In this document: piece by piece, positions 31,217 to 37,634 of the stretch
Numbering within the stretch: position 1 is the stretch's first letter
How the letters are laid out: each line of letters begins with the position of its first letter
NCBI GenBank assembly: GCA_016192455.1
Contig: JACPUC010000023.1
Location: forward strand, 1 to 37,634
Direction of reading: 5' to 3'
DNA: 37,634 nucleotides
DNA from: Candidatus Tectimicrobiota bacterium
GTDB lineage: Bacteria > JACPUC01
Translations under genes and position numbers: made by a program
The notes under the pieces: model-generated
Told to the model about the DNA's origin: nothing
Databases searched by the model: none
What the model saw: only the letters and a program-made list of their open reading frames with translations

Positions 31217-31251
31217 GCAGTTTTGCCACTGGTCTGGATCACTAAGGGAAC

Positions 31252-31278
31252 GCGGCGAGGGGCGTGCCGCTCTTTTTT
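31252..31278 (+). terminator. Probable rho-independent terminator after fdx
   Basis: GCGGC (31252-31256), 9-nt loop, GCCGC (31266-31270), then TCTTTTTT. It lies 36 nt after the fdx stop. The stem is short, but the T-run is good. Confidence 0.55.
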
Positions 31279-31454
31279 GGCGGACGGGATTACCCCTTTC
31301 ACGTATTCGCAGGTTCATCTGTTCCCAGCCGTGGCGAAGTGATTGCTTCTCTTGCATGTGATACAAAAAGCCGTACCTTCGGCAACAGGAAATTTCGTCA
31401 CGCCGCGCCTGGGCAGAATGCACGACGCGCCTTTTATGTGAATGGATCAAACGT

Positions 31455-33188
31455 CTATGATTGACCTGGGAAAAGAATCTCCCTCCAAGACTCAGCGAGG
31501 CTTCTAGATATATTATCTAACCTCTCATTCGTAGGAATCTCAACTTGATTATAATTCTGAGCCAAGTAATCATTAAATCCAGATATTCTATTTCTTCCGA
31601 TATATTCGAGATAATCCATAATTTCTTGAAACAATGATCGACCGGAAAGATGCAAAGACTCCAACACCTCTACATCCTCAACTGTAAGGAGAACAAGCTC
31701 TGATACCACAATTTCTTGCGGACAACCAACCATTTCATAATGTTCCCAGAATTTCCTATCTAGGTAACAGCGAACAAGCCCAAGACCAAGACACTCATCA
31801 AAGGTAACAATTATCGGAATAATTCTTTTGATTCCTCCTAGATCGATGCCTTTCCCGCTAAGTAATTCTCTCCCGTCCTCGCTGCCAACGTATTTTATTG
31901 CGTTAACTAATTGACGAACAGCTTTTGCCTTTCCGCGTTCGTTCTGAACATACTTTCTATCCAAGTCAGAACGTAGCTTCTCAACGGAGTAACTATACTT
32001 AGCATCCGCATTAAGCGGGGAAGTCTTAAACTCAAATAGAAACAAAGTTGAGTTTACGCATACTAAGTAATCGCACACTTCCTCGCCATTAGTTTTTTTG
32101 ATCCTTCCGCACGTTATCGTCTGACCACCTTGGTCCCTAAAAAGTTGATTGAAGCGCGACTCCATATAATTGTCAAAGGCTAAGCCAAATGCTTCATGCA
32201 AAAGGTCTTTTTCTTCATTTCCTAGGGAATCATGATATTCCCAAAACAATCCCACATATAATTTGTCGACAAGAAAGTCAATATCAAGGCATGTAAAGAC
32301 ATCGGACCCGACACTTAATAGTGGCCTGCCTCGAAAGCTATTGAAATCCATATAGAAATACTGTGTGTCTTGTTTTAACAGTTGGCGCCGCATAGAGCTT
32401 ATGTCAGTTATCAGTAATGAGATGCAAGAATTAATAGTAGCTTGATCAATGGCACAGTTTCGGAAAATGTTACTAAGATTTCCTACGCAAGGGATATCTA
32501 TTCTTGGATAATAAAGGTGCTCTGTTAGCACGCCGTAAATTGCAAATACCATAGCTTGCCACTTATCTAGACTAAAATTATAGCATTTCTTAAACCATTC
32601 CGCTATGTCAAAGCAGATATTTGTTCTTGTAATACGTATATTGGGTATTTCCTTGATGAAAAGATCGTAACTCCTCGAAATTCTTCTCCATAGACAAGGC
32701 TTATGACCAAGCTCATAAGCAGGAAGGATGCGGACTAAGTTAAGAAGGAGCCGATCGTTAGTGTCGGTCTCTTCCACTTGCAACTCGGGTCGAATCGTGT
32801 CATTTAATTTAAGACAGATCTCACCTACCTGCCAATGATCACGCTGAGTCAGATTTATTCTGGTTCCTGGCGTACAATTCATTATAGCTAGTTTTATCAG
32901 ACACAGTAGTTGTTGCTTATGAAAGACTGTTGTCTTGGACGTTGGCAAGTCAGGACGATTCAAGAACTCTTGCAGTCTAGCCATGATGTTCGGAGAGAGA
33001 TAGTGGGAAACAAGCCTACGTCTCATATTCCCATCTTCATCTGTACTTAGCATTACATTGATTTTGGCAAGATCAACTATCAGAGATTCTAGGTTATACT
33101 GAGATAAATGATGGCATAGCTCGTTTAAGCTCTCTGTCCATTGGCTTGAATGGATCGAATTATACGAGATATACATTCCAGGGTTCAT
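31455..33188 (-). CDS. Unknown protein with PD-(D/E)xK nuclease-like motif, in an AT-rich island
   Basis: 577 aa from the ATG at 33188, which has GGGGAG 5-6 nt upstream; an ATG at 33254 would add 22 residues. Base and codon use are far more AT-rich than all neighbours, a sign of transfer. I do not recognise the family. The N-terminal 330 residues look alpha-helical. The C-terminal part has the pattern of a PD-(D/E)xK nuclease: a helix with glutamates (HEAFGLAFDNYMESRF), Asp373 in CDYLV, Glu386 and Lys388 in FLFEFKTS, then KAVRQLVNAIKYVG as a following helix. If real, it would cut nucleic acid and may serve defence. It follows the flavin reductase gene by 58 nt. Confidence 0.6.
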   Translation of the reverse strand: MNPGMYISYNSIHSSQWTESLNELCHHLSQYNLESLIVDLAKINVMLSTDEDGNMRRRLVSHYLSPNIMARLQEFLNRPDLPTSKTTVFHKQQLLCLIKLAIMNCTPGTRINLTQRDHWQVGEICLKLNDTIRPELQVEETDTNDRLLLNLVRILPAYELGHKPCLWRRISRSYDLFIKEIPNIRITRTNICFDIAEWFKKCYNFSLDKWQAMVFAIYGVLTEHLYYPRIDIPCVGNLSNIFRNCAIDQATINSCISLLITDISSMRRQLLKQDTQYFYMDFNSFRGRPLLSVGSDVFTCLDIDFLVDKLYVGLFWEYHDSLGNEEKDLLHEAFGLAFDNYMESRFNQLFRDQGGQTITCGRIKKTNGEEVCDYLVCVNSTLFLFEFKTSPLNADAKYSYSVEKLRSDLDRKYVQNERGKAKAVRQLVNAIKYVGSEDGRELLSGKGIDLGGIKRIIPIIVTFDECLGLGLVRCYLDRKFWEHYEMVGCPQEIVVSELVLLTVEDVEVLESLHLSGRSLFQEIMDYLEYIGRNRISGFNDYLAQNYNQVEIPTNERLDNISRSLAESWREILFPGQS

Positions 33189-33246
33189 GGATTCTCCCCT
33201 CAGCACCATTTGAGTAACCTGGGCGTCTCTTCTCGGCCATCCTTCA

Positions 33247-33957
33247 TCAATCATAACTCTCCGTCCGCATCTCCTTGCGCCCGAATCCCAGCTCCTTGAG
33301 GTGGGCGCGGAGGGGGCGGAGGTAGGCTTTGAGGCCGCAGATCATGGGGAAGTAATCGCGGCGCTGGTTGTAGAGGGAGTCGATGAGGGCGATCTCGCGG
33401 CGGGGGTCGGCGGGGTGGTGCTCGTCGCCGGCGGTGATGACGGGGTGGTAGCGGAACTGCTCCTGGCGGGCGGCGAGGGCTTCGAACTCGTCGTGGTAGA
33501 TGAGGTGCTCCCGGCGGGCGGCGCTGTGGATCAGGGTGGCGGGCGGCAGGGTTCCCTGCCTGGCGAGGTGCGTCAGCATGCAGCGGATCGGCACGATGCC
33601 GGTGAAGCGCGCCAGGAAGAGCAGCTCGCGCGGCGGCGGCTCGGGGAGGCAAAAATTCCCCAGCGGCCCGTCGATCTCCACCGCGTCCCCTTGCCGAAGG
33701 CTGAAGAGGTAGCTCGATCCAAGGCCCTGGGGCACGCGGTCGAACACCAGCACGAGGCGTCCGGAGTCGTCCCGCGGCGCGGCCAGGGAGTAGGCCCGCG
33801 CCAGGGGCGGATGCTCGCCCACCGGCAGGCGCAGGGAAATCCACTGTCCCGGCGCGAAGTCGAGCCGCCGGCTTGCCGGCAAAAGGACGATCTCGCGCAC
33901 CTCCGGCGTCAGCTCGCGCGCGCTCTCGACGGTAGCCTGCTGCGTCGTTCCCGACAT
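33247..33957 (-). CDS. FAD/NAD-binding oxidoreductase (ferredoxin reductase-like)
   Basis: 236 aa. FAD site RAYSLA preceded by FAPGQWISLRLP, a GPLGNF flavin/phosphate loop, and an NAD-binding GIVPIRCMLTHL segment as in FNR-type reductases; no iron-sulfur domain. It would pass electrons from NAD(P)H to a partner such as the oxidoreductase encoded upstream (34108-35115). The C-terminal aromatic residue typical of FNRs is not obvious (ends ESYD). Confidence 0.85.
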   Translation of the reverse strand: MSGTTQQATVESARELTPEVREIVLLPASRRLDFAPGQWISLRLPVGEHPPLARAYSLAAPRDDSGRLVLVFDRVPQGLGSSYLFSLRQGDAVEIDGPLGNFCLPEPPPRELLFLARFTGIVPIRCMLTHLARQGTLPPATLIHSAARREHLIYHDEFEALAARQEQFRYHPVITAGDEHHPADPRREIALIDSLYNQRRDYFPMICGLKAYLRPLRAHLKELGFGRKEMRTESYD

Positions 33958-36538: not shown

Positions 36539-37129
36539 TCATAATCTGGAATATATGGCTAGTACAAAAGGAGCACCATCGTATATGTTCTTGGTCTTGT
36601 CTATTGAACGATACTCAACATCAAACTTAAGTTTTGCGGCAGAAAGAAGTTTGGACATACTTTTAATACCTTTGTGATTTTCAAATGAATCTCTGACCAT
36701 TATACTAATGCCACTTTTAAGAGGGCTTAATGGGCTCCATTCTTCGGCGATTTTAACATTACATCCACCTTTAGCTATCGTTTCCCCAAGATTAACAGCA
36801 AATTTCATGGCTTCTGAATCGGTATGATTTACAACAATCATCACTATTGGCTGTATCGGACATGCCTCCTTTGCAGCTTTTATGATTTTTGTAGCCTGCC
36901 TATTCGTTAATCGTCTTGGGCCTTTAGCTTCTCGAACAGCCGCAGACCACCATGCTATCCCCACGGTGATCATAATGGCAGTTGACAAAATCAATCGAAC
37001 AGTAGGTTTAGCGGAGGCCATTTCCCTAGCCTCCAAACACCATCGAAGAAGAGCAAGAAAGAAGCCTAAGGCCACAACCCAGGTTAAACCGCGAAACCAA
37101 AATTCTATTGCTGGCATTTTTAACCCCAT
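36539..37129 (-). CDS. Membrane-anchored protein of unknown function, in an AT-rich island
   Basis: 196 aa from ATG 37129 (an ATG four codons later is also possible). Two hydrophobic segments, about 8-28 (WFRGLTWVVALGFFLALLRW) and 44-66 (VRLILSTAIMITVGIAWWSA), then an alpha/beta cytoplasmic domain: RRLTNRQATKIIKAAKE, PIVMIVVNHTDSEAMKFAVN, VKIAEEWSPLSPLKSGISIM and a final FVLAIYSRL. I do not recognise the family. Codon use is AT-rich, unlike neighbours. Confidence 0.55.
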   Translation of the reverse strand: MGLKMPAIEFWFRGLTWVVALGFFLALLRWCLEAREMASAKPTVRLILSTAIMITVGIAWWSAAVREAKGPRRLTNRQATKIIKAAKEACPIQPIVMIVVNHTDSEAMKFAVNLGETIAKGGCNVKIAEEWSPLSPLKSGISIMVRDSFENHKGIKSMSKLLSAAKLKFDVEYRSIDKTKNIYDGAPFVLAIYSRL

Positions 37130-37223: not shown

Positions 37224-37469
37224 CTGACCGAAGTTGGCTCGTTCGATGCCAAGACCCACCTCCCCAACCTGTTGCGCCGCGTGGAACAAGGTGAGACCAT
37301 CACCATTACCCGGCGTGGCAAACCGATTGCCCGGCTCGTACCAGTGGAGCCCGACCGGCAAGCAGAGGTCCGCGAGGCGGTCCAGAGGCTTAAGGTCTTC
37401 CGCCGCGGCATGCCTGTGGTTCCCTTGCAGGAACTGCTGGAGGCGCGGCACGCAGGACACCCGTACTGA
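37224..37469 (+). CDS. Phd/YefM-type antitoxin without an ordinary start codon
   Basis: The frame opens after a TAG at 37212-37214 and reads LTEVGSFDAKTHLPNLLRRV, ETITITRRGKPIARLVPVEP and a charged C-terminus ending ARHAGHPY. The VGSFDAKTHL start is the classical N-terminus of Phd/VapB proteins, but no ATG, GTG or TTG precedes it; CTG 37224 gives 81 aa, ATC 37218 two more, and TTG 37272 (65 aa) would remove the first strand and helix. The stop overlaps the ATG of vapC. Probably the AT-rich island or a point mutation took its start. Confidence 0.7.
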   Translation: MTEVGSFDAKTHLPNLLRRVEQGETITITRRGKPIARLVPVEPDRQAEVREAVQRLKVFRRGMPVVPLQELLEARHAGHPY

Positions 37470-37634
37470 TGCTCGTCGTCGATTGCTCCGCGTTGCTGCC
37501 GCTCTGCTTCCCGGATGAAGCGAGCGAGCGGGCCGAGACCGTGCTCGATGCCCTCGCCTCGCAGGGCGCGTGGGTGCCGGCGCTCTGGTGGTTCGAGGTG
37601 TGGAACGTCCTCCTCGTCAGCGAGCGGCGCGGGC
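37469..37634 (+). CDS. VapC-family PIN-domain toxin, N-terminal part
   Basis: First 55 residues, running off the window. LVVDCSALLPLCFPDE carries the first active-site Asp; VPALWWFEVWNVL carries the conserved Glu. The ATG overlaps the antitoxin stop (TGATG). PIN-domain toxins cut RNA. Whether it is still controlled depends on the odd antitoxin start upstream. Confidence 0.85.
   Translation, partial: MLVVDCSALLPLCFPDEASERAETVLDALASQGAWVPALWWFEVWNVLLVSERRG

Follow-up and report, generated by a model that had tools for sequence, protein, structure and literature searches.

A remote, unannotated GapS1-like protein, predicted to be a PD-(D/E)xK nuclease, encoded by an AT-rich gene of a Candidatus Tectimicrobiota bacterium

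Contig JACPUC010000023.1 of a Candidatus Tectimicrobiota bacterium (assembly GCA_016192455.1, genome size 4.46 Mb), analysed here in its entirety as a window of 37,634 nucleotides, carries an AT-rich gene whose product we assign by profile comparison as a remote, unannotated GapS1-like nuclease. We favour, with a probability of roughly 0.7, the reading that this protein is a stand-alone, horizontally acquired antiphage nuclease related to GapS1, in which infection sensed by the front part of the chain would lead to the cutting of nucleic acid.

An AT-rich gene among redox genes

The gene occupies positions 31455..33188 on the minus strand and encodes 577 amino acids when read from the ATG at 33188, the length given in the earlier note; the complete open reading frame spans 31455-33254 and yields 599 amino acids from its first ATG, so that 33254 is an alternative start. 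The start at 33188 is preceded by a good Shine-Dalgarno sequence (AGGGGAGAATCC-ATG, with the ribosome-binding site region at 33189..33202, minus strand). When the region was shuffled 2000 times, no open run exceeded 209 codons, as opposed to the 599 observed. With a G+C content of 39.8% (0.398), the gene differs strongly from the rest of the window at 66.9% (0.669), and none of 163 other gene-length windows on the 37.6 kb contig has an equally low value. These figures bear out the earlier description of a 577-residue protein encoded by a single AT-rich gene, which lies between ordinary redox genes; of the island then drawn at 31217-33240, the gene itself stands but the limits do not, since the gene runs on the minus strand from 33188 or 33254 and 31217-31454 is intergenic.

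To the right, genes for a FAD/NAD reductase, a luciferase-like monooxygenase and an ABC permease lie on the same strand as the nuclease gene, while to the left a gene for a 2Fe-2S ferredoxin faces it. The nuclease gene lies 58 bases downstream of the reductase gene, and because of this gap and the shared strand it could be the last member of the reductase operon. With the reductase and the ferredoxin as its neighbours it is a stand-alone single gene, as GapS1 is. No defence genes were found next to it, and the redox and transport functions of its neighbours count against an antiphage reading. The search for flanking repeats or insertion borders at the gene returned merely short chance pairs, an integrase is likewise absent, and promoter and terminator predictions at the locus did not rise above those in shuffled sequence.

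Relatives of the window protein

Taken alone, the window protein had no match in Pfam, PADLOC, NCBIfam or PHROGs. Scanning genome and viral contigs for patterns from the window protein and two relatives, L003 and L004, gave no matches, and tblastn found no relatives in phages; in plasmids it returned one weak match, from Pseudarthrobacter, which is a true relative. Full-length relatives of 571-606 amino acids, with identities near 20%, were obtained from a search of 386 genomes, each from a different family. The window protein is 13-23% identical to all relatives found, and L003 aligns with window residues 7-570 at 22% identity (E 1.2e-11). A profile built from six sequences (A1) recovers further members, namely L012, L013 and L014, the last being a paralogue in the window's own genome. 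The broader profile A5 detects about a dozen clear members in the 386 genomes, a count that leaves out weaker matches with longer frames, and two copies in the genome of the window. Current annotation is blind to the window gene and to most of its relatives.

Homology to GapS1

GapS1/GAPS1 was reportedly described in Mahata et al. 2024 (Nat Microbiol 9:3268). The curated NCBI model NF047931 (antiphage_GapS1) matches L002, L012, L013 and L014 with E-values of 2e-10, 2e-8 (1.6e-8), 1e-17 and 9e-19, respectively; for additional members from plasmids and genomes its E-values range from 5e-11 to 1e-26. A Klebsiella prophage protein, L027, scores 393 bits with this model, which exceeds the curated 320-bit threshold, and most E. 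coli homologues of L027 bear the RefSeq name GapS1. A protein of this Klebsiella prophage was independently called GAPS1-like by a published structure-based annotation (PMC12774648), and a conference report credits K. pneumoniae GAPS1 with protection against many phages (PMC12908700). The window protein itself has no match to NF047931 and therefore lies below the 320-bit cut-off; its relatives reach 21-94 bits.

In profile-profile comparison the window protein together with three relatives matched bona fide GapS1 at E 1e-5, and a six-member window set did so at E 7.8e-9. A four-member window set matched the GapS1-like set, which comprises the proteins matched by NF047931 including the annotated E. 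coli GapS1, at E 3.4e-23 over 469 columns. Stripped of the nuclease, the front still matched the GapS1-like front at E 1.1e-17 over 269 columns and the back part alone matched the GapS1-like set at E 3e-15, while the controls of this comparison, reversed sequences and the front against the back, gave no match. As the front matches by itself and the controls are negative, the helical stretch of residues 1-320 (32229..33188, minus strand), which the first reading of the sequence had left unrecognised, can be placed as the GapS1 front, and the "unknown family" proposed at that time gives way to a remote GapS1-like protein. By this profile evidence, the window family is homologous to GapS1 over its full length, in the front as well as in the nuclease. 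The window residues D373, E386 and K388 align with D316, D329 and K331 of GapS1.

In a phylogenetic tree that is poorly resolved around the GapS1 clade, the window protein falls outside bona fide GapS1, on another, weakly supported side (82/85). Because it fails the curated cut-off and lies outside the clade, we file it as GapS1-like rather than as GapS1. GapS1 is likewise a single protein, of about 500-580 amino acids, with a helical front and a C-terminal D...(D/E)xK nuclease, it is likewise encoded by an AT-rich gene carried alone, and the profile match covers the whole length. The window protein differs in being only about 15% identical and about 60 residues longer, in lacking a match to the curated model, and in being encoded chromosomally among housekeeping genes, whereas GapS1 is found beside a P2-like integrase. 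Judging from the homology, the window protein probably works like GapS1, although function need not be kept at such a distance.

Active site and predicted structure

The predicted PD-(D/E)xK nuclease domain, delimited with an AF2 model and VIA-align, extends over approximately residues 321-535 (31584..32228, minus strand). Its core motif D373 ... E386-x-K388 (32025..32072, minus strand) is present as the earlier note had quoted it and is largely conserved among 19 divergent members. Asp373 is invariant (19/19), the acidic residue at position 386 is kept throughout (Glu in 15 members, Asp in four; 19/19), and 17 members have Lys at position 388, where the other two, L002 and L006, carry Thr. 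The window's D339 marks the first acidic position, in the helix before the core (32172..32174, minus strand), and is represented by Glu in 14/19 members; the conserved Gln426 in the helix after the core (31911..31913, minus strand) is kept in 16/19. In L002 (7437-9113) and L006 (895-2634), E-x-T takes the place of the motif with the expected catalytic Lys, and catalysis in these two proteins is possibly altered or lost.

The AF2 model of the window protein has a mean pLDDT of 54, with values of about 45-84 in the nuclease part and mostly 26-40 in the front up to residue 160; the low-confidence model of the front is mostly helical. In the nuclease part it shows a helix at 324-351, strands at 356-359, 374-378 and 381-388, further helices, and a strand at 455-462. 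With moderate confidence, the model therefore points to a PD-(D/E)xK core consisting of helix, three strands, helix and strand, with D and (D/E)xK on neighbouring strands. For the nuclease part, VIA-align of the window model ranks the PD-(D/E)xK cleavage domains of N.BspD6I (Z 10.9, 189 residues aligned, 4.0 Å) and FokI (Z 9.9) highest among solved structures; these matches lie within about residues 166-553 at 7-12% identity, and the recognition domain of the restriction enzymes was not found in the window protein. Upx (9.0), Cdn1 (8.5) and Can2 (7.4) follow, with lower values for Shedu, McrC and Hachiman. The CRISPR ancillary nucleases Can2/Card1/Cdn1, Shedu SduA and Hachiman HamA act in defence and share this core (Z about 6-8.5), but none of the sensing domains that they carry, CARF among them, was detected in the window protein. 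Holliday junction resolvases appear among the weaker fold matches. Both the conservation across homologues and the structural comparison, in which the best solved matches are PD-(D/E)xK nucleases and no other fold, agree with the nuclease class originally suggested for the protein.

Foldseek with the window model returned nothing at E < 0.001, and a search of viral models with the window and GapS1 models likewise gave nothing below 0.001. Since Foldseek alone provides no strong match, our claim on the fold draws on motif, model and VIA-align together. A sequence search of solved structures gave no convincing match, and a weak PHD-finger match in it was dismissed as chance; profile A5 matched the DUF1887-family structure 8bao alone (0.0074), in the nuclease core. 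The model of bona fide GapS1 (pLDDT 75.6) has its best match in the antiphage protein Upx (9wuf; Z 11.7 over 366 residues, nearly full length), the protein also matched by the window model. Upx differs in having a chain of 1212 residues and has no sequence match with profiles A1, A2 and A5. Nearly all of this GapS1 model (m28e824ef4cc7, encoded at L048 2977-4503) aligns with Upx 33-523, and the window model with residues 912-1272 of Upx; the models hint that Upx contains two such modules.

Genomic context of the relatives

Defence genes or prophages surround eight of the relatives examined. L003 adjoins HEC-02, L013 adjoins a type I restriction-modification (R-M) system and L002 lies near a type III R-M system. 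L019 has a type IIG R-M gene on one side and PDC-S06 on the other, and a DrmD-like helicase is encoded upstream (region L043 1544-13572). L005 (region L038 302-3893) follows the phage-defence candidate PDC-S39 with an overlap of 29 bases, near a DRT-type, UG21-type reverse transcriptase, and may form a two-gene system with PDC-S39. Three GapS1 genes reside in P2-like prophages, and a P2-like integrase adjoins the gene at both E. coli loci examined. Other members, such as the window gene, its paralogue L014 and L020, are solitary among housekeeping genes. At 22 of the 23 loci compared, the gene has a higher A+T content than its flanks; the difference averages 10 points, and the surroundings range from 31% to 70% G+C. 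Since these loci are related to one another, a sign test on them serves as no more than a guide. Horizontal transfer is the simplest reading of the origin of these genes.

Proposed function and alternatives

Given the conserved front and nuclease, the defence contexts and the homology to GapS1, the window protein is most likely a one-protein antiphage sensor and nuclease, whose front would sense infection and whose nuclease would then cleave nucleic acid. The nuclease part of this proposal is well supported by motif conservation and modelling, and the antiphage role, drawn by analogy from the known biology of the family, is the most likely one. The helical front of about 320 residues, as the putative sensing and regulatory part, would keep the C-terminal PD-(D/E)xK domain inactive and would respond to a presumed cue of infection. 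The nuclease would then cut nucleic acid, presumably DNA or RNA, with a putative metal held by D339, D373 and E386 and with participation of K388. Phage growth would stop as a result, and the infected cell would probably be sacrificed, as expected for an abortive outcome.

An antiphage system or a restriction enzyme without a methylase had been proposed from the sequence at the outset. The full-length GapS1 homology and the defence contexts of the relatives speak for the former, and we retain the latter as a rival, in which a solitary restriction-type endonuclease, modification-dependent or orphan, would use the front as recognition domain and cut DNA directly according to sequence or modification instead of serving as a triggered abortive effector. 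N.BspD6I and FokI are type IIS restriction enzymes, and type I, IIG and III R-M genes occur beside relatives, which is in keeping with such a function. The structural match to these two enzymes is, however, mainly that of the nuclease domain, the front has its profile match in that of GapS1 and Pfam recognises no restriction recognition domain in it, and no methyltransferase lies beside the window gene among the flanking genes scanned (from 24.5 kb rightward). We consider a restriction function unlikely on these grounds.

Alternatively, the protein might serve DNA repair, recombination or a selfish element as a resolvase- or homing-like nuclease with no role in defence. This would fit the resolvases among the weaker fold matches, and an AT-rich solitary insertion is also consistent with a selfish gene. 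Such a role appears improbable in view of the patchy occurrence of full-length members (about a dozen in 386 genomes), the several defence neighbourhoods around relatives, and a window gene that has neither flanking repeats nor an integrase. The replacement of Lys by Thr in L002 and L006 shows that the motif is not kept family-wide, as might be expected if the gene were a decayed or catalytically dead relic, or encoded a nuclease toxin directed against other targets; we regard this as very improbable for the window gene, which has an intact 577-codon frame with every motif residue present.

The link to GapS1 places a kind of system that is already known in a wider frame: GapS1 is part of a far broader family sharing one front domain, of which the window branch and most other members are unannotated. 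Because the front domain is shared, a single solved mechanism of sensing and killing would explain orphan genes in many phyla, and the consistently low G+C content of the solitary genes offers a simple search handle for more of them. More tentatively, GapS1 might represent just one tip of an extensive superfamily, for the most part without annotation, whose members are plug-in defence nucleases encoded by single AT-rich genes that occur on their own among the housekeeping genes of many phyla. The longer Upx would perhaps be a further member, and the window protein would form a deep branch apart, with a trigger and a target of its own.

Other genes near the two copies

The host's second GapS1-like gene, L014 (L035 9449-11077), has a G+C content of 0.45 as compared to 0.66, and its product groups with cyanobacterial proteins in the tree (98/99). 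About 6 kb from it lies an AT-rich Hypoth_Ymh (PF09509) gene (L035 2677-3465). At the right end of the window (37224-37634, plus strand), a gene for a Phd/YefM antitoxin (Pfam E 3.3e-10) is followed by the overlapping start of a PIN-type toxin, truncated by the contig end, the pair constituting a VapBC-like toxin-antitoxin system. Adjoining this pair is a second AT-rich gene (36539-37129, minus strand), which encodes a protein of 196 amino acids with no Pfam match.
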